Assembly: GCF_010015585.1 (NCBI RefSeq)
Contig: NW_022985073.1
Location: 324,929-388,928 of the forward strand
DNA length: 64,000 nucleotides
Origin: Eremomyces bilateralis CBS 781.70
Lineage: Eukaryota > Ascomycota > Dothideomycetes > Eremomycetales > Eremomycetaceae
Direction: 5' to 3'
Part shown: positions 28,646 through 46,379 of the stretch, piece after piece
Layout of the letters: the number at the start of each line of letters is the position of its first letter
How positions within the stretch are numbered: position 1 is the stretch's first letter
Made by a program: the position numbers and the translations under genes
Notes under the pieces: generated by a model
The model's input: the letters and a program-made list of their open reading frames with translations, nothing else
The model's database searches: none
Told to the model about the DNA's origin: nothing

Positions 28646-29887
28646 ATGCCTATCATGGAGGAGCCCAAACGTTCTGAATACGATACTATACGAAAAACGC
28701 GATTCTTTGATGCCTACGATACACTTCCGAAAAGCTCTTCTTTTAATAGTCTTTGTAAAAGAGAGGGAATAGAGATACCTCCATCAACAGGTCGATCTTG
28801 GCTGGAGCAACGCGAGCAATGTGGTCTAGCCGCATATCGTAAGACTCGTAAGCTTAGCACACGTCTCGGACAGCCCTCTCGAATAAGCGATTCAGATATC
28901 CATCGCTTATTTGATCCATCAAATCCTCTCCATTACCAACCGTACGATGAACAGGGCCTCGAATTCAATGTTAAAGGGAAAACAGTACAACGAAACGTAA
29001 AGGAACGGGCAGGAGCCCAACGATTTCGAAAGCCCTACGTCACAGCTATCTCCCCGGCACATAAAAAAAGACGGGTCTCGTTTGGTCAACGAAATAAGGG
29101 CGAAACATTGACGAGATTTTGGCGATACGTCTACTTCACGGACGAAGCCCATTTCAATTCTCGAGATCTCTCAGATCGACCTGAATATGAGCTTCGAGAT
29201 CCTGGGGTAAGTCAACATCCTCAAAATCTCCAGGAAACCGGGTCACTCCCACTCAATGTCACTGTTCACGTCGCGAGTGGTGTTTCGTACGACCACAAAG
29301 GTCCACTCGTCTTCTACAACGATCCAGCTTGTCCGACCGTCCCGAAATCCTACAGACCACGCGCCCCTCGCCGATCTAGCATTGAATCAGAAGAGCAACA
29401 TGCTGAAAACGTCCGAATCTTTCGAGAAGCAGCTGATCGACCAGAGGTCGAATCAAAGCCTAAAGGAAACTCTATGGGCCAGAGATTCTATCTAGAAGAG
29501 GTTCTTCCGCATCATATTAAGCATCTTAAGTGGCTCGAGGGTAAATATAATCGGAAGTTCTTCTTTGTTGAGAAAAACGACCCATCTCATGGAACTCGTT
29601 CTATGAACAATCCCGTTATACAACGAAAGAGAGATGAAGATCTCCTATTACTTGATTACCCCGCTCAATCATCTGGTCTAAGTCCACAAGAGCCAGTTTG
29701 GAGAGCGATGAAACAGGTGCTTCGAGGTGGATCATGGCATTCGGTGGAGGGATTTAAGCAAGCTATTCGGGCTGCCCATCGCTCGGTATCACAGCAATCA
29801 ATTCGTGGATATATTAGTGAGATGCCTCAGCGTTGTGAAAAGCTCATCGAGCTAAAAGGAGGCCGAATTCGCTCTGATAAGTGGTAG
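28646..29887 (+). CDS. Tc1/mariner-type (IS630 superfamily) DDE transposase, intact ORF
   Basis: A 413-residue single-exon ORF. Residues 10-130 form a helix-turn-helix type DNA-binding region (TRFFDAYDTLPKSSSF, then RISDSDIHRLFD). The catalytic core shows the first Asp in YVYFTDEAHFNSRD (D166). The third acidic residue is E349 in PAQSSGLSPQEPVW, the counterpart of the usual PAQSPDLNPxE block. Between them, FFVEKNDPSHGT fits the second block, usually EDGNPSHG in fungal relatives from memory; here Lys310 stands where the catalytic Asp is expected, with Asp312 two residues on. The frame is uninterrupted, so the copy is recent or kept under selection. I see no terminal inverted repeats pairing the left flank with the first 500 bp after the stop. 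Family call strong; activity doubtful. Confidence 0.85.
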   Translation: MPIMEEPKRSEYDTIRKTRFFDAYDTLPKSSSFNSLCKREGIEIPPSTGRSWLEQREQCGLAAYRKTRKLSTRLGQPSRISDSDIHRLFDPSNPLHYQPYDEQGLEFNVKGKTVQRNVKERAGAQRFRKPYVTAISPAHKKRRVSFGQRNKGETLTRFWRYVYFTDEAHFNSRDLSDRPEYELRDPGVSQHPQNLQETGSLPLNVTVHVASGVSYDHKGPLVFYNDPACPTVPKSYRPRAPRRSSIESEEQHAENVRIFREAADRPEVESKPKGNSMGQRFYLEEVLPHHIKHLKWLEGKYNRKFFFVEKNDPSHGTRSMNNPVIQRKRDEDLLLLDYPAQSSGLSPQEPVWRAMKQVLRGGSWHSVEGFKQAIRAAHRSVSQQSIRGYISEMPQRCEKLIELKGGRIRSDKW

Positions 29888-35218: not shown

Positions 35219-35227
35219 TCTATAAAA
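35219..35227 (+). promoter_or_regulatory. TATA box of the secreted repeat-protein gene
   Basis: The sequence tctataaaa lies about 150 bp before the start codon, a plausible distance for a fungal gene with a 5' leader of about 100 bp. Confidence 0.55.
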
Positions 35228-35375
35228 GCCGTGTCAACGCGTCGTATTCAGTCTCCTTGTCTCTTTATCCGCATCGTTCAAGTTCAATCCTTCGCAAAGA
35301 GTCCTTCATTCCGGCTTCTCCAAGTCCTTCATCCTTCCTAGCCCTTCGTTATCGAAGACTACCCCTACCTTCACC

Positions 35376-36200
35376 ATGCGTACTCAACTCCTCGTCGCCG
35401 GCATTGCTCTGGCTGCCTCTGCGATGCCTCTTGAGGCTGCCACGCGGGTCGAGCGTCGCTCTCCATCCCCAGCTACCCCCGCCACACCCCTAGGTAGCCT
35501 CATCGACAAGCTCCTCAGCGCAGTTCCGCCTGTCGAGTTCGACCTTGGAGTCGGAGGCAAGCCTGAGAACGGGTCGACTGTTGAGCGTCGCTCACCAACC
35601 CCGGTCGAGCCAACTACCCAGCTGGGCAAACTCATCGATGGCCTCCTCAGTGCGGCCCCACCTATTGAGCTCGATCTTGAAATCGGCGGAAAGCCCGAGA
35701 ACAAGACTGCTACACGTCGCTCTCCATCTCCTGCTACCCCAAGCACTGCGCTCGGGACCCTCGTGGAGGACCTTTTGAGTAAAATCCCTCCTGCCGAGCT
35801 GGATCTCGGACTTGGCAGGCGTGCGCTCATCAGCCGTGCGGATATCGCTTCTGCCCTCCCAGATATCATTGGCACTGTTACCGACATTGTCACTGTCATC
35901 CTTGGCCACATCCCAGCCACCGATCTCAACCTGGGAGTCGGCAGGCGCGACGTCGCCAGCGCAGCGGCCATTACCACTATCCTCCCTGACCTCCTGAACA
36001 CGGTCACCGATGTTATCGGCGTCATCCTTAGCCACGCTCCTCCGGTTGAGCTCAACCTTGGTGTCGGCAAGCGTCAGGTCCCCAGTTCGGCAGACCTGAG
36101 TGCAACCGCCTCAGATCTTCTCGGCAGTGTTACAGATATCGTTGGTGTCGTTCTCAGCCACGTACCGCCGGCAGAGCTTGAACTTGAAGTCGGCAAATAG
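35376..36200 (+). CDS. Secreted six-repeat precursor protein with Kex2-type cleavage sites
   Basis: A single exon of 274 residues. MRTQLLVAGIALAASA is a signal peptide, and a short propeptide ends VERR (27-28). Six units follow: 29-72, 73-115, 116-149, 150-191, 192-233 and 234-274. The first five end in VERR, TRR, GRR, GRR and GKR, dibasic sites of the Golgi protease Kex2; the last stops at GK. Every unit carries the core LLSxxPPxELDLGVG (variants IPATDLNLGVG and VPPAELELEVG). Units 1-3 begin with SPxP; units 4-6 begin with a small-residue stretch and have a longer hydrophobic helix (such as LPDLLNTVTDVIGVILSH). Units 1 and 2 end with GGKPEN, and the next residues complete N-glycosylation sequons (NGS, NKT). 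There is no Cys, Tyr or Trp. This fits fungal kexin-processed secreted repeat proteins. Function is unknown; structural, repellent or signalling peptides are possible. Confidence 0.85.
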   Translation: MRTQLLVAGIALAASAMPLEAATRVERRSPSPATPATPLGSLIDKLLSAVPPVEFDLGVGGKPENGSTVERRSPTPVEPTTQLGKLIDGLLSAAPPIELDLEIGGKPENKTATRRSPSPATPSTALGTLVEDLLSKIPPAELDLGLGRRALISRADIASALPDIIGTVTDIVTVILGHIPATDLNLGVGRRDVASAAAITTILPDLLNTVTDVIGVILSHAPPVELNLGVGKRQVPSSADLSATASDLLGSVTDIVGVVLSHVPPAELELEVGK

Positions 36201-36718: not shown

Positions 36719-37447
36719 ATGGCAAATCTATTCGAAGAAGGGACCCAATCCCTTCTCCACGCCAGCGAGCATGTTTCGAGACGCACAGTTGGATACTTCA
36801 AGCGATTCTTGGATTGGGCGCTACAAGATAACGTTCTCGAAGTCGCAGTTGGGCTGATGTATGTGACGATTTTAGCTGTTCAGTCATTTCTTCCAGTCCC
36901 CTCTTCTACATGCCACGTCTCCTTCTCTCGTGTTACATCCGGTGTTTAACCTGCTACGCAGCATCGCTGCAGCCTTCACGGCGGTTGTGTCATCCCTCAC
37001 TACCGACATTATACTTCCTATTGTGTCACTTCTCCCCTTCTTCAATCGCAATCTAGATGAGAAATTTGCCATTCTTCGTGGTGGCCCGCATAGCGAACAG
37101 GGCTACAACACGATCAAACAAGCCCTCGACGATGGTGCCGTTGTATTCGCCTATGGATCCTTCCTCGATAAAGTGGTCCGTTTCATGGTGCTTGGATTGA
37201 CAATGTATGTCACCGCTCTTGTATACGGCTGGATGAGCAAAGATAACATCGTCCGACACTCGGTGCGATGCAAATATTGTCGGAAGAGGATCAGCGAGAA
37301 GGTGAGTGGAATCGATTCGAAGCGGTCGATCCGGAGATCACGACGCTGTGGGCAATCGTTTCTAACTTACCACGTTTTCATAAATGCCAGGCTACGCGAT
37401 GTTTCAACTGCACCAGCTGGCAGGATGGCAGGGAAGAAATCAACTAA
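36719..37447 (+). CDS. mscL: Large-conductance mechanosensitive channel (MscL family) with C-terminal zinc ribbon
   Basis: Exons 36719-36858, 36962-37301 and 37391-37447 give 178 residues. Introns of 103 bp (GTATGT..CGCAG) and 89 bp (GTGAGT..GCCAG) restore one frame. The protein follows bacterial MscL: a cytoplasmic start and amphipathic helix (FKRFLDWALQDNVLEVAVGL), then IIAAAFTAVVSSLTTDIILP leading out of transmembrane helix 1, a periplasmic-type loop with FAILRGG, and helix 2 (FLDKVVRFMVLGLTMYVTAL). The tail has CKYC..CFNC, a four-cysteine zinc-ribbon-like end also seen in some bacterial (notably actinobacterial) MscL proteins. MscL opens under membrane tension to release solutes in hypo-osmotic shock. 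Its bacterial shape suggests old horizontal transfer, but the introns show long residence in the fungus. The membrane in which it acts cannot be read from the sequence. Confidence 0.9.
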
Positions 37448-39070
37448 TTAACACGTCATGACGGGAACCGGGCAATATACCTTCCACGAATGTTCGATTT
37501 GTAGGGGTCTTTTCGCAATGAAGACATCCCAAACCGTTCGTCGTCGCACCGTGTCGGCGAGATTGCACTTTACAATTCACTTGGAAAGCTTATTATCGAT
37601 CGTCGTTGGGTTCGAAGACGAACAGCAATTTCATCTGAATTGCAGTCGCACGGAGGCCCTCACCGACATAATCTTAAACAATTTATATTGTGGCGCTTGG
37701 GTCCAGGTTCTGCTGCCGGCCCCTGCATCCTTCAAACGATTGCATACGAACAAGAAATCCTTGGATGCCATGTGACGATAATGGTCGGTCATGCGAATCG
37801 GGGGCAATTAATATATTCGATGGCGCTTGCTCGGGTCTAAGCACGAATAATGTCCAATTTGACTTGACCGTCCCCTCGGCCCCCGTAGTGCGGCACTGAA
37901 TGGGAGACGGACTGGGCGGAGCGCGGACAAGTTTTCCGAGAACCCGGAATTCAAAGTTGGGAAGCCATGATGAGGACTATTTATTTGAGTCGTCCTTAAC
38001 AGCAATAAGAGGAAGGTTTATACAGAAGTTGAAGCATCTTGCGTTTCACAGTCCTAAAGTTTGAAAGGCGGGGGTGGCAGAGAGTTGGACGGCGACACGA
38101 TGCCGACGCTAGTGGTCGGCAGATAGTGGAGCGCCTGGCCGCGGTCCGCCACTCCCCTTCGATATCATCCCCATAATCTCACCTCACCTATTCTCCACCC
38201 AAATAACCAGTGTGATATTCTTCCTCAGGCTTTAGTCAGTTTTTTATGCTTCCGAGAGAGCCCTTTTGATCAGCTGTATCGCATATTGGCCATATTTCGA
38301 AGGGAGAGGGCCTATTATCGCTCGGCAATCTTGACAACCCTCATCTATCGGCGTTCACCAATTTTGGCTGGTCCTCATGGCAAGCAATCATTCCCTTGAT
38401 GACTTTATCTCTCAGGAGTTATTACCCAACTCGGTAGATTAACGAAGAGGGCAGCAGTCCTGGCCGCCACCCTACCAATGAACATGCGAAGAATCAACCT
38501 GTATCCGTCTTAATATACCAATAAGGTTTGGCTGCAACTTACCCCCAGCATCGCTAGCTAGAAAGGGTTGTCATAACTTCCACGAATCCTCGTCGCTGTC
38601 CCATGCCCTCAGTCCCGGTTCGATATGCGTCTTGTTTATACCCATATACGAGTCTTTCATACGCTCCACGCGCTTCCCCGCAATGAAACAACCTGGATTC
38701 TACCCCTGATGCGCTCTGTCTCGTTCCTGTTCATGTGGGCTCACTGACCCCTTCTGGCTGCACGGGTCAACCGCTGTCGTTTAACTCTCGCGCATCCCTC
38801 TTCTTGCTGCTCCTTCTTCCCAAAATATCCTACATTCGGCCTCGCGAAACGACGCAGTCAGCGTGTTGGCCAGCTCATAACCTGTTGAAGACCGGCCTCA
38901 TCCTCGAACGTCCTTTTTCGAGTCCTCTGGATGTCGTGACCACTCTGTTATTCCTGTCCAATCCTGACATCACGACCGCGCCTTTGCCTCGGCCTGTGGG
39001 GGAACGATGAAAATGTCCACCTCTACCACCCAACACCGACAATAGTACGAATCGGCGACGGATCGCCATC
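37448..39070. other. Gene-free stretch before the rhodopsin-like gene
   Basis: 1.6 kb with no domain-bearing or long open frame. Overlapping short frames near 37640-37900 are chance-like. The last 300 bp is probably the promoter of the next gene. Confidence 0.5.
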
Positions 39071-40552
39071 ATGCGAAAAGTACCGGCCGCGGTGATGGAC
39101 CGTTGGCCTGCGCCCAACTTCGTTAATCCGGAGTCGCAGGCCAACAAGATGCTGATTTCCATCTATATCTGCATAATAATCATCATCTTCGTGCTCTTGC
39201 TTCGGCTGTACTCTAGAATATACGTCGCAAAGTGGGTCTCCGCTTGGTGTGATGGAGCGAATCGACTGGGCTAACTGGCATTTGCATCAGATTCTTTGGA
39301 ATGGACGACTGGATGATTGTGCCCGCTGCTGTAAGCCTTCTTCAAATCCACATGAACCTAGATCACACAGAACTAACTGTAGTATAGATCACGGCCATCG
39401 GGTACGGGATCAACGCAATTGTCGCCATCGACCACGGCTGGTGTAAGAAGTTTTTAGTCTTTAGCTTAGAGCACGACTGACAAACTCCAGACAAACACAT
39501 ATGGGACCTCCGACCACATGAACTAATGATGGCTCGAAAACTCGTCATCGCATCCAACCTGACCGGATTGTACACAGCCGGTTGTACAAAACTTTCTGTC
39601 CTTCTCCTATACCACCGAATCGCGCCGGCATATTCTCGATTTCAATATCTAGTCTGGTTCTTTACTGGACTCGCCATCCTTTGGATCATCAGCTTTACCG
39701 CCGCGAACTTCCTGCTGTGTATCCCGCTTCATGCGTATTGGGATCTCAATTACGATGGTCCGCAGTCGTGCTTTGTGGAGGTGCCCTACTTTGTCGCCTT
39801 CGCAGGAATCGATCTCTTCCTAGATACCGCCATATTCATCCTGCCTCTACCGCTGGTCATCCCACTTCGTTTACCGAAGCGTCAGAAGATGATCCTTGGA
39901 GCTGTGTTTGGGATTGGGATTTTGTGAGTACAGCAAAATCCATCGATCACTACCAAAACTGACGTGCTTCAGCGCGGTCGTTGCAGCAGCCCTTCGGTTA
40001 CCAAGCCTTGTTCGGGTAACGGAATCATTTGATCTAACCTGTAAGCACCCCATCGCCTCCCTTCGTCCCTTAAAACACTTCAAACCCTTCGAGTATTAAC
40101 CAGCCTCAGGGGAAATCTACGATGCTGCCCTCTGGACCCTTGTCGAAGCCACCGTGGGCATCTTCTGCGCCTCCGTCCCCGCCCTGAAGCCCCTCGTCCA
40201 GAAATACACCCCCGCCATCCTCGGCACCATGGGCAACGGGAATCTCACGGGGAGCGGCCACATCAATAGCGGGATGTACCCGAACAGCCAACCGGCGTTC
40301 AGCCGCGCCGACTCGCGGGCATACAGCGAGCAGGCGTGGAGCCGCACGCGGTCGCGAACCCTCAGCGAGCCGACCTACAGTCGCGAGCTGTCGCGGACAC
40401 AGAGCGGCAACGTTGTTTTCAGCGACATCGAGCGGGGGAAGGGGTCTGGGGAGTTGGAGAGCGTGATCCTGACGCGGATCGAGCTGGCGGGGCGGGTGCG
40501 GGAAAGCACCGACAGTTCGCAGCGATTGGTGTCGCCGCGGCGTATGGTTTGA
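39071..40552 (+). CDS. Integral membrane protein with fungal rhodopsin domain (Pth11/SAT4-like)
   Basis: Six exons: 39071-39231, 39291-39330, 39388-39442, 39491-39923, 39973-40040 and 40110-40552, giving 399 residues. All five introns (48-69 bp) have GT..AG ends and keep the frame. Seven membrane segments can be read: KMLISIYICIIIIIFVLLLR first, then the segment with FFGMDDWMIVPAAITAIGYG, and so on to the last near TLVEATVGIFCASVPALKPL. DDW after helix 2, the conserved GCTKLSVLLLYHRI block and the two Cys around helices 4-5 match the fungal rhodopsin-domain family (DUF of SAT4/Pth11 proteins). After the last helix, about 130 hydrophilic residues with SRTRSRTLSEP-like Arg/Ser repeats form a cytoplasmic tail that could bind kinases. 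Members often act as surface sensors, but the ligand is unknown. Confidence 0.88.
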
Positions 40553-41039: not shown

Positions 41040-41970
41040 CCCGGAGTCTATCCATGATTAGATTGGCTTATACCCGCCACCCCCGGCGCAGAATCGCCTA
41101 CATAGCTTCCCATACCAGAGTCTGCACAATGTTTAAGTCCATAGGTCGATTTCACTGCCCGAAGCACTTTGTTCGGGGCCTCAGAGTATCTTTTCGGTGC
41201 TTCAAAGTAGGTCTCTTCGTCGATGTCTTCATGTAGGCAGGCGGTTTTGATGTCCTCCTGTCGACACTTGTAGCCAAGGAGTGCCACAAGTGCGAGAGAG
41301 GCCAGATATAACGGTGACTTGACCACCGATGCGAATGCTTCCTGGAAGTCCACTCCATAGGCATTTTCAAACCCATGTACAACTCAACTAGCTTTGTATC
41401 TGGTGGTCCCTCAATCTTCGTGCCATGGCATGCGTCGACGGACTTGACGGGCTCTTATATATAGCGCTTCCAACCATGCGCGAAGCCCGTCCGACTGCTG
41501 AACCACCCGAGTTCACATCCTCGTCCACCGTCTCCAAGGCCCTCTGACTGCCTCAAGGGGGACAGCTTCTCCCAGCGCCAGCCTCAGGATTCGGAGTATC
41601 TCGGGTAGCACCTGGTTCCCTAGTCGAGTATTTGAGCCCTGGTATATATAGGACCTGCATCATGCCGTAGAAGAAGATGGCCTAGAAGTGGCCCCGAACC
41701 TGGTCCCTCTCACTGCGGGACCCCAACCGGACCATGTAGGAGGCATAGGTCGAGGTCCTTGTGGTAGTTCAGCAGGGCTTCTTTCGTTTCTCGTTCCGCA
41801 TTCAATTTCTCCACACCGCCCTGGAGCTTCCTCATCCGCTCGTCCTGCTCCTCATTACCGGCGCGGAGTTCACGAGGAAACTGGCGGAAGGCTCGGAGTC
41901 GTAAGAAGGTTATCTGTTCGTAAATCGAGAGTATGAATTCCTCGATGTTGACCCCATTCCAGCTTGTGTC
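41040..41970 (-). mobile_element. Broken Ty1/copia LTR retrotransposon fossil, reverse transcriptase and gag-like parts
   Basis: On the minus strand, 41048-41353 reads like the reverse transcriptase N-terminal region of fungal copia elements, with CRQEDIKTACLHEDIDEETY and SEAPNKVLRAVKSTYGLK; the family has QEDIKTAFLHGDIDEEIYME and SEAPNKVLRL-like blocks. Further along, 41760-41930 has a coiled, gag-like piece (LRAGNEEQDERMRKLQGG). The copy is broken by several changes and is not whole. I found no flanking LTR pair. The decay suggests it is old, though the exact age cannot be judged here. Confidence 0.65.
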
Positions 41971-44531
41971 GCGTCTCGGTTAGGGATGAACCTCCTGGGT
42001 CGACAGGTCGAAGCGGGGAGAAGCGGTCGGGGCTTTGGACGACCTCGCAAGTCTAAAGGCCTGGAGCCGGTTGGAAACTTTCATGCTCCTCCAAGAGATT
42101 CACCGACGCCGCTTTTTCTGCGTCGAGGTTTGTTATATAAGCGATTTGAATGGTTCTATATCGACTATTTCGTTGCTACCTGAACTGCCGAAACTTTATG
42201 AGCTGCTGAAGGTCTAGGGCACTTACTTCGTGGACATATGTTGATTTCTCTGCATGGGATCGGGAAATGGTATATAACCTGTGCATTGCCGCTCGAGCGG
42301 TAGCCTTTGTAGTAGCCAGTGACGAGGGCGGGAACGAGGGCGAGGATGAGGACGAGGACCAGGACGAGGACAATGGGTGCCATTCCTTGGTCGCTCTGCA
42401 TGCGCTGAGTATATACATCATCCATGCAGCCATGTTGGCTTTCGTTCTAAACGGGGCCACCAGCGAAGAGGATGGTTCTGAATTGAGCTCGCATCGGGCT
42501 TGGTTGGACCATGGGTTCCGATCCTCGTCAGTTCATCCCAGTGGGTCGCGAAGTTGGTCGATGCCGGCAACGGCTTGGCCCTGCATGAGCCATGTGGTGA
42601 CAAGGTGGGCGAACATGTACGTGGACCGTGGTCGTTGCAGGGCTTCTGCGGAGTCTATGAGTCGGCTGAGTTTGTGGTATATAGATATGACTTCGGCATT
42701 ACGACGTTGGATCGATACCAGCTCCGCGAGCTGGCGGACTCACTCAAGAACATGAACGAGATCGAGATGGGCTTCGATCCTTGTTTCGCCAATCTACAAC
42801 CAACGTTGGGTGTGCCATATCAAGGCTTCGTGGGCAACTGGATTGCGTCGGTTCGATCGGCCAGCGGCAAGGCGATCGAAGAATCTTGTCACAAAATATA
42901 TACTGATCGAACAAGTCCAGGACTATATTGATGGTGTAGAAATTCATATATAAGATCGGTTCGATAAGATATTTCTGAGGGCTGGCAAAGGAGATTTAGG
43001 GTTAGAATGAAGAGCAGGCTGAAGAAGATTGAAAGAATTTCTCATAAATTTGATGGGCTGAATAAGTCATATAAACGACATATTGTTTGACCGGATCCAA
43101 ACGGTTGAATGAATTGGTTTATAATTCCGGAGGGTGCGAGAAGGATAGGGAAGGATAGAGAAGTAGGAGGACGATCTCTCTCTTTGAAAATCAGGACGGA
43201 AACCTAACAAACGAGGAACACGAATCACAGTGGACAATACAGATACCCTCGCAGAGAAAACGCTGGACGCAAACGAGGGCGGATGAAAGGATACAACTGT
43301 ACGGAGTATTAGGAGGTGTATGTAGCCGTCAGAAGATATGAAACTCGCCTAGTTCCTTCGTTGTAGTGATGGGAGGTCTCCCAAACAATAACAAAGACGG
43401 GACGAAATAGGTGATAGATAGCTATCGCCGTAGGGAGGTATCCTTGACACACAGGTCTCCAGCCTACCAAAAAAGAAAGAAAAAAGCGAGGAAAGAAGCA
43501 CAGGGCATGGAAATTCTTTCAACATAGGCACGGCAAAGAAGTCCAGAGCAGATACCGCTAAGGTACAATAGCAATCGTGAGTTTTCAAAGCCCTGGACCC
43601 CATGGTCCCGGTCCACCCGGGTATCAAATGCATCCAGCATCAATGATCCATCATGGTTGGGGACATCTAGTAAACGGGATAGTATTCTAGGCTTGTACTC
43701 AAAGTTTTTTGGCGCTCTAAAGGTGACTAAACGCCGGAGTTTGATGGGCAGGGGAAGCGAGTCCACCCATCTTAACAGAAGCTTTGCATCGAGTTGATGA
43801 TACAAAACCAGAAGTCAATTTGACATCTTTAGGCAGATCAGAGGAAGCCATCAATTCGTTCCAATGACTGTTCATAAGGCAGATGGATGCCATGCCCATG
43901 CTCTTGCTGCTGACTGCTTGTCTGGCACATCGAAAAACGGTCTTGTTCATGGTACTTTATGCAGTGTAGCTTGCATCGTGAGCCAATAAATGGCTGACAA
44001 AGGATTTCCTCAGCGGATAAATGCTATTATCTAATCCACTTGCAGATCAGATGATACCTGTCGTCCAGCTGAGTGCTAGGAATTGCTTTACAGTGGGGGT
44101 GGAGCTTGTTGATTTATGATTGTTGAGTGACAGGCTGACAGCGGAGCAAAAAAATGCAAAGGGGTGAGATGATCGGAACTGCCCCGCGGATGTGTTGATC
44201 GCCCAAACATTTCATCATCGCTTTCTCCGGAGGTTCACTTCATCATTTCTGGTTCCCATAAGTCAACGACTCTTGACGGAATTATCTGAAGAGATCAATT
44301 GCAAAAACATCAGGTTGTAAGTTCCAACATTCAATTGTCTTTCTTACACTAGTTAGCCTTCAACACTTTCTGTTTGTCGTGTTGATAGTGCCCCGCCTAC
44401 ACCGCCTACCATTGTGCTGACTCTCTGAATTTCTCCGCTCGAATCCATTCATAAAGGATCAGTTCTGATACATTGTCTAATACATTCTAGAGTCAATACT
44501 TCTCCCATTGAGTCATCCATCAGCCGCAATC
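41971..44531. other. Gene-poor stretch between copia fossil and phosphoglucose isomerase gene
   Basis: The left part (41971-42950) may be more of the copia fossil or its surroundings. It includes a GAGGAC-type purine repeat near 42325-42375 on the plus strand. The middle has possible coding fragments at 43349-43950. The last 500 bp is the promoter and leader of the isomerase gene, with a pyrimidine-rich block. No recognised gene. Confidence 0.4.
43349..43950 (-). other. Possible decayed gene of unknown family
   Basis: On the minus strand a frame from 43950 starts MNKTVFRCARQAVSSKSMGM and a second frame (from 43805) continues with KLLLRWVDSLPLPIKLRRLV and LSRLLDVPNHDGSLMLDAF. These look like protein but are one base out of step with no intron to explain it. 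It could be a frame-broken gene. No domain is recognised. Confidence 0.2.

Positions 44532-46379
<1,848 letters not shown>

Follow-up and report, generated by a model that had tools for sequence, protein, structure and literature searches.

A predicted Kex2-processed repeat precursor with two kinds of unit that share a ten-residue tail

The precursor gene and its surroundings

The gene described here lies on the forward strand of the window, by which the whole stretch of DNA analysed (64,000 nucleotides) is meant, and encodes a protein of 274 amino acids for which no intron is needed. No earlier Met was found in the stop-to-stop frame (35226–36200). A TATAAAA box is located ~155 bases 5′ of the ATG, and the leader between the two is rich in pyrimidines. 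The protein opens with a signal-like stretch (mean of 2.37 in an 11-residue Kyte–Doolittle window) that is likely cut after ASA16, with an equal score for ALA13 under a simple version of the −3/−1 rule that is distinct from SignalP. A pro-piece of 12 residues with RR at its end then leads into six units, in which the SPxP starts of units 1–3 and the glycosylation sequons of units 1 and 2 were found as the earlier note on this DNA had given them. The features are as follows.

35221..35227, + strand: TATAAAA box, a sequence match only
35376..36200, + strand: repeat-precursor ORF, whole, 274 aa
35376..35423, + strand: signal-peptide-like stretch, aa 1–16, by Kyte–Doolittle hydrophobicity and the simple −3/−1 rule
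35424..35459, + strand: short pro-piece MPLEAATRVERR, aa 17–28, ending in the first dibasic site
35460..35591, + strand: unit 1, subfamily A, aa 29–72, 44 aa with RR; SPSP start, NGS sequon
35568..35576, + strand: sequon NGS in the linker of unit 1, putative N-glycosylation site by sequence
35592..35720, + strand: unit 2, subfamily A, aa 73–115, 43 aa with RR; SPTP start, NKT sequon
35700..35708, + strand: sequon NKT in the linker of unit 2, likewise a putative N-glycosylation site
35721..35822, + strand: unit 3, subfamily A, aa 116–149, 34 aa with RR; SPSP start, tail without linker
35823..35948, + strand: unit 4, subfamily B, aa 150–191, 42 aa with RR; contains LISR
35949..36074, + strand: unit 5, subfamily B, aa 192–233, 42 aa with KR
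36075..36197, + strand: unit 6, subfamily B, aa 234–274, 41 aa; N-terminal Gln, single Lys before the stop

As previously claimed, the protein contains no Cys, Tyr, or Trp, and Phe occurs once in its whole length. The best 19-residue Kyte–Doolittle window outside the signal has a mean of 1.61 (aa 157–175), a value at the usual threshold for a transmembrane segment, and a membrane-bound product is therefore conceivable. Codon bias is unremarkable and not of the kind expected for very high expression: the CAI of 0.49 compares with 0.42–0.65 for nine other ORFs of the window, with just three histone-like fragments as the reference set, among which L016 may be no canonical histone. Among the histone-like matches, those at C57:882-1073 and C62:882-1073 (L018 and L019) are the same and carry one internal stop; the first 2573 bases of these two contigs are identical, and they are probably duplicated contig ends.

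Directly downstream of the precursor lies an MscL-type channel gene (36719–37451, + strand) with, by eye, at least two exons, of which ORF 36930–37451 matches Pfam MscL (E 1.3e-10). At ~39.1–40.55 kb (+ strand), some 3 kb beyond the precursor, is an intron-split seven-helix gene of the Fung_rhodopsin family (PF20684), with matches at 39481–39924 (E 4.2e-31) and, just under the cut-off, at 40100–40549 (E 5.1e-6); to pair this receptor with the precursor peptides would be pure speculation. On the − strand, 41051–41383 holds part of a reverse transcriptase of Copia type (RVT_2, E 7.3e-11). A glucose-6-phosphate isomerase exon spans 44508–45128, with 7oyl, an Aspergillus fumigatus enzyme, as its best PDB match, which makes a filamentous ascomycete the probable source. 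A search of the window and of the genome for the ITS3 primer site gave no match. On the other side of the precursor, a 413-aa ORF at 28646–29887 (+ strand) has no Pfam match and looks by eye like a Tc1/mariner-like DDE transposase, and the frames of 100 codons or more at ~29.9–35.3 kb are unremarkable by eye, with no Pfam match in the two that were scanned.

Six related units are bounded by dibasic sites

Dibasic sites number exactly six in the precursor; each is KR or RR, the first lying ahead of unit 1 and the other five between units. Every pair stands at a unit border and none falls within any of the six units. When the residues after position 20 were shuffled, a mean of 1.0 such pairs was obtained, and six or more were seen in 2 of 20000 shuffles. 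Cutting at KR/RR gives seven fragments, including the six related units of 34–44 aa (32–42 aa as mature cores once the basic residues are removed). The similarity between units exceeded that of all 500 shuffles in 14 of the 15 unit pairs, which bears out the earlier description of six related units, the first five ending in RR or KR; the exception is pair 2-4, whose score was reached by 33 of 500 shuffles.

BLAST alignment of fragments cut in silico, an approach described for Kex2-processed repeat proteins (KEPs) (PMC9769878), linked 12 of the 15 unit pairs (E ≤ 1e-3, filters off). The pairs left unlinked were 1-4, 1-6, and 2-4, and each unit was still linked to at least three others. Among 188 stop-to-stop ORFs of at least 100 aa in the window, 61 yielded four or more fragments on cutting, and 4 had a fragment like two others, these being the precursor, the antisense counterpart of its frame, and two more ORFs that begin, as printed, with sequence rich in S, P, L, or R.

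Two subfamilies share a conserved tail

The split of units 1–3 (subfamily A) from units 4–6 (subfamily B), which had been proposed from the letters, is real: alignment scores lie at 95–139 within subfamilies and at 27–60 between them. The part of the unit before the tail is also longer in B than in A (30 versus 22 residues). A tail of the PPxELDLGVG type had been described for all units, and each does carry one, but it is not uniform, with units 4 and 6 as examples.

35526..35555, + strand: tail of unit 1, PPVEFDLGVG
35658..35687, + strand: tail of unit 2, PPIELDLEIG
35787..35816, + strand: tail of unit 3, PPAELDLGLG
35913..35942, + strand: tail of unit 4, PATDLNLGVG
36039..36068, + strand: tail of unit 5, PPVELNLGVG
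36165..36194, + strand: tail of unit 6, PPAELELEVG

The invariant columns are P, L, and G at positions 1, 7, and 10, and a single aromatic residue occurs across the six copies. Subfamilies A and B are alike almost only in this ten-residue tail, PPxELxLGVG: the mean between-subfamily score was 49.0 with the tail, against a shuffle maximum of 26.3, and fell to 19.3 without it, against a shuffle mean of 17.0, a value reached by 48 of 1000 shuffles.

When pooled, synonymous differences between the units are large (pS 0.58–0.67), whereas pooled pN is 0.26 in subfamily A, 0.30 in subfamily B, and 0.19 in the tails of all six units; these values come from few sites within one gene, with synonymous change near saturation, and are indicative only. 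Because pS is high while pN is lower, and lowest in the tails, the repeats are probably old and kept by selection rather than the result of recent expansion, with the tail as the most constrained part.

Helical periodicity and composition of the predicted peptides

In each of the six units, the 18 residues that precede the tail have their highest hydrophobic moment at 90–105 degrees, and the subfamily-averaged peaks lie at 96 degrees (A) and 100 degrees (B). Compared with 5000 shuffles of this 18-residue stretch, the p values at 100 degrees for units 1–6 were 0.002, 0.005, 0.013, 0.000 (as printed), 0.002, and 0.001, which are not six independent tests because the units are related. Beta periodicity at 165 degrees was not significant in any of units 1–6 (p 0.29–0.99). 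Under a stricter control, in which the best 18-residue window was compared with 2000 shuffles of the whole unit, the observed value was reached by 94, 81, and 176 shuffles for units 1–3 and by 17, 8, and 29 for units 4–6. An amphipathic α-helical periodicity thus appears well supported in the B units and weaker in the A units.

The earlier note had assigned longer hydrophobic helices to units 4–6; a crude Chou–Fasman profile gives these units much beta propensity, which their content of Ile, Val, and Thr explains. Each of the six cores is acidic (net −3 to −6, pI 4.05–4.37), and the B cores are strongly hydrophobic (GRAVY 0.60 to 1.05). For unmodified peptides processed by Kex2 and Kex1, the average masses calculated for units 1–6 are 4145.6, 4212.7, 3160.6, 3996.6, 3980.6, and 3973.4 Da, with higher values for units 1 and 2 in case of glycosylation; trimming of the X-Pro dipeptides would bring units 1–3 to 3777.2, 3830.3, and 2792.2 Da.

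Relatives of the precursor

A search of the organism's own genome with the full protein returned the precursor itself and one match at E 0.2, which reads by eye as a cytochrome P450. No paralog was thus found among the best candidates of this six-frame search, which a diverged copy could escape, and units 4–6 as a query matched only the precursor gene. Pattern matches in viral contigs (9) and in prokaryote genome contigs (174) included none that was confirmed. No relative was found in plasmids or, up to E 10, among PDB sequences. The one Pfam match, DUF5745 (E 0.098), scored 13 bits where the cut-off is 27; the one NCBIfam match, an MscL model (E 0.065), scored 13.3 bits where it is 197; and PHROGs gave a single family (E 0.84). 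By their descriptions, the collections searched hold the organism's own genome as their only fungal one, and these negatives are weak. Five strings taken from the tail were absent from the main text of every paper in the full-text collection searched.

Kinship of the units to MscL was considered and rejected as chance. The score of units 4–6 against the second exon of the neighbouring gene was reached by 22 of 500 shuffles and that of units 1–3 by 265 of 500, and scores against the first exon were reached by 491 and 499 of 500.

Processing machinery in the genome

The P_proprotein domain has one match in the organism's own genome, within a 774-aa ORF that looks by eye like a Kex2-type protease anchored by a transmembrane stretch near its C terminus. 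DPPIV_N matches two loci, which are candidates for a Ste13-type enzyme. At least 13 matches to UstYa, at least 11 of them over the cut-off, were found on contigs C3, C15, C16, C21, C32, and C35 in a six-frame search whose counts are lower bounds; none of the matches listed lies on the precursor's own contig (C7), and unmodified linear products are for this reason taken as the default. Two of the UstYa genes (C16:395085-396023 and C35:47418-48356; L006 and L007) have the same layout in loci that are 99.1% identical over 2270 bases, and represent either a duplicated segment or an uncollapsed assembly.

The ends of the predicted peptides allow some further suggestions. Gly precedes the basic residues in units 3–6, and in animal neuropeptide precursors a Gly before basic residues leads to C-terminal amidation; for units 3–6, this is a remote idea by analogy, and Cu2_monooxygen had no match in the organism's own genome and likewise none in the control genomes. 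After the cut, X-Pro dipeptides begin units 1–3 and are absent from units 4–6, which begin with AL, DV, and QV, so that N-terminal trimming may differ between the subfamilies. Unit 6 begins with Gln, and when KEP peptides of mushrooms were produced in Pichia, pyroglutamate was observed at ends of this kind (PMC9769878). LxxR has been listed as an extended Kex2 motif (PMC8528282), and the LISR near the start of unit 4 is a possible additional Kex2 site of this type.

Discussion

KEPs are a numerous class of fungal proteins whose functions are largely unknown (PMC9769878). A survey of 250 fungal species counted 1193 members, of which 77 had two kinds of repeat and 2 had three (PMC6339444), and a second survey of 1461 strains counted 7878, of which 5318 fell into 838 types and 2560 had no homologs (PMC7329392). 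As these surveys describe them, KEPs fall into four or more fragments when cut at KR/RR, with at least three similar ones of 8–100 aa and repeats making up at least 15% of the protein (PMC6339444, PMC7329392), and have in addition a signal peptide, no transmembrane segment, and a Kex2 enzyme in the organism. Set beside the layout and enzyme parts of this description, the precursor gives seven fragments with six similar units, a repeat coverage of 74% by the published KEP formula (34 × 6 / 274), and a Kex2-type ORF in its genome. Its architecture and predicted processing make it very probably a KEP. The earlier note was thus correct to see a Kex2-type precursor, but of the kexin-repeat precedents it named only Rep1 and UstA and missed the general class. 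The layout is that of an established type of fungal precursor, and only the peptide sequence looks new; repeats of two kinds, and repeats free of Tyr, are each ordinary among KEPs.

On the reading that we prefer, the precursor would enter the secretory pathway by means of its signal-like N-terminus and be cut by Kex2 after the six KR/RR pairs, a Kex1-type carboxypeptidase would trim the exposed basic residues, and Ste13-type dipeptidyl trimming of the SPSP and SPTP starts of units 1–3 could follow. Six linear peptides of 32–42 residues would leave the cell, each of them, to judge from periodicity only, a short acidic amphipathic α-helix followed by the ten-residue tail PPxELxLGVG. The two kinds of peptide would be told apart by the helix part, and a linker would follow the tail in units 1 and 2. 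On the hyphal wall or at an air/water interface, the peptides may act jointly as a surface-active set, with the shared tail as a common assembly or docking part. A surface-active set had been suggested before, and the amphipathic periodicity makes it plausible, as a proposal only. We put the probability of this whole explanation, the best at hand, in which a KEP releases a surface-active set and works in the manner of Rep1, at roughly 0.4. The surface-active function of the peptides, for which the argument is by analogy, is held a shade more tentatively still. It is doubtful that the two kinds of acidic, cysteine-free helix peptide, delivered in a fixed 3:3 ratio, co-assemble through their tails into a secreted coat or surfactant.

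The strongest rival to the surface-active reading, although itself rather unlikely, is that the units are secreted signalling peptides, i.e. linear hormones processed in the manner of α-pheromones and sensed by the fungus or by a partner. The two X-Pro dipeptides that follow RR in units 1–3 form an STE13 signature (XA or XP after the Kex2 site), treated in one survey as a mark of hormone-like KEPs (PMC6339444), the genome has the two DPPIV_N loci, and constraint is strongest in the tail, which would suit an end that binds a receptor. The signature is absent in units 4–6, however, and the cores are longer than the 9–24 aa of known α-pheromones and lack the Cys and PYGxPxG marks reported for those of dothideomycetes (PMC6339444); the divergence of the units further speaks against one exact ligand. 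A less probable suggestion is that of membrane-active peptides directed against other organisms, like those that Kex2 releases from Candida Ece1, for which an amphipathic α periodicity that is strongest in units 4–6 and the hydrophobicity of the B cores would be suitable; a role in biotic interactions has been proposed for KEP-derived peptides (PMC9769878). Classical antimicrobial peptides are cationic, whereas all six cores are acidic, and this disfavours a membrane-lytic role. To damage epithelia, the Ece1 peptide requires positive charge at its C terminus (PMC5784256).

Slightly less probable again is a chain that stays unprocessed or partly processed, in which the RR and KR pairs are linkers and the product is a wall protein or one of helical repeats. 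Repeated helices of amphipathic character might pack together, and cleavage is itself only predicted, but the position of each dibasic pair exactly at a border, with none inside the units, and the Kex2-type protease encoded in the genome argue for cutting, and units that vary from 34 to 44 aa, with linkers in two only, are unlike a regular solenoid. Very improbable is a precursor of dikaritin-type cyclic RiPPs modified by UstYa enzymes, which would have the same layout of a signal and Kex2-separated repeats in a genome that does contain UstYa matches; set against it are the absence of such a match on contig C7 among those listed, the complete lack of Tyr, Trp, and Cys, a most conserved part that has one aromatic residue in six copies, and cores of 32–42 aa, dikaritin cores being short. 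The earlier note had also decided against a dikaritin, and the contig agrees with it, but its ground that dikaritins need a Tyr was too strong, as Tyr is reported in 65.6% of the repeats of KEPs near UstYa/DUF3328 genes and in 38.2% of the repeats of KEPs elsewhere (PMC7329392).

Two diverged helix types on one conserved tail are the feature of the precursor that makes a function testable. If the peptides do co-assemble, one precursor would supply an alternative to hydrophobins that has two components and needs no disulphides, repellent-type surface peptides would gain a probable example from the ascomycetes, and biosurfactants free of cysteine would have a compact source; if they do not, the gene adds one more unassigned precursor of secreted peptides. 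Neither Hydrophobin_2 nor Hydrophobin had a match in the organism's own genome, in a search in which the controls gave none and which small intron-split genes may escape; this result is given no weight in favour of a replacement of hydrophobins.

Comparison with known systems

With KEPs as described in the two surveys, the precursor has in common a signal-like N-terminus, units separated by KR/RR, and a compact array, and KEPs with more than one kind of unit are likewise known (PMC6339444, PMC7329392). Ascomycete α-pheromone precursors share the Kex2 array, and X-Pro follows the cut here in units 1–3, but the present cores are longer and have no Tyr, Trp, or Cys core motif (PMC6339444). Dikaritins such as the ustiloxin precursor also have a signal peptide and Kex2-separated repeats, and differ from the precursor in its lack of Tyr, in the absence of a UstYa match on its contig among those listed, and in its much longer cores. 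Candida Ece1 is a single Kex2-cut precursor that gives several peptides, one of them amphipathic and membrane-active (PMC5784256, PMC7329392), whereas all six cores here are acidic and carry a common tail.

The closest parallel in proposed manner of working is with Rep1 of Ustilago maydis, a species that probably belongs to another phylum than the fungus studied here; Hum3 of U. maydis is comparable in layout. In both proteins, amphipathic repeats are separated by Kex2 sites, with lengths of 34–55 aa in Rep1 and 31–36 aa in Hum3 that are similar to those of the present units (PMC4617103). Ten of the Rep1 peptides measure 35–53 aa, and the Rep1 peptides form surface-active amyloid-like fibrils on hyphae that help aerial growth (PMC4617103). 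The precursor has six units against 12 and 17 in Rep1 and Hum3, and has neither a long product such as Rep1-11 (228 aa) nor the hydrophobin domain of Hum3 (PMC4617103). Its units also show alpha, not beta, periodicity, in contrast to the amyloid-like fibrils of the Rep1 peptides (PMC4617103). The likeness to Rep1, as an analogy, would be one of design and not of membership.
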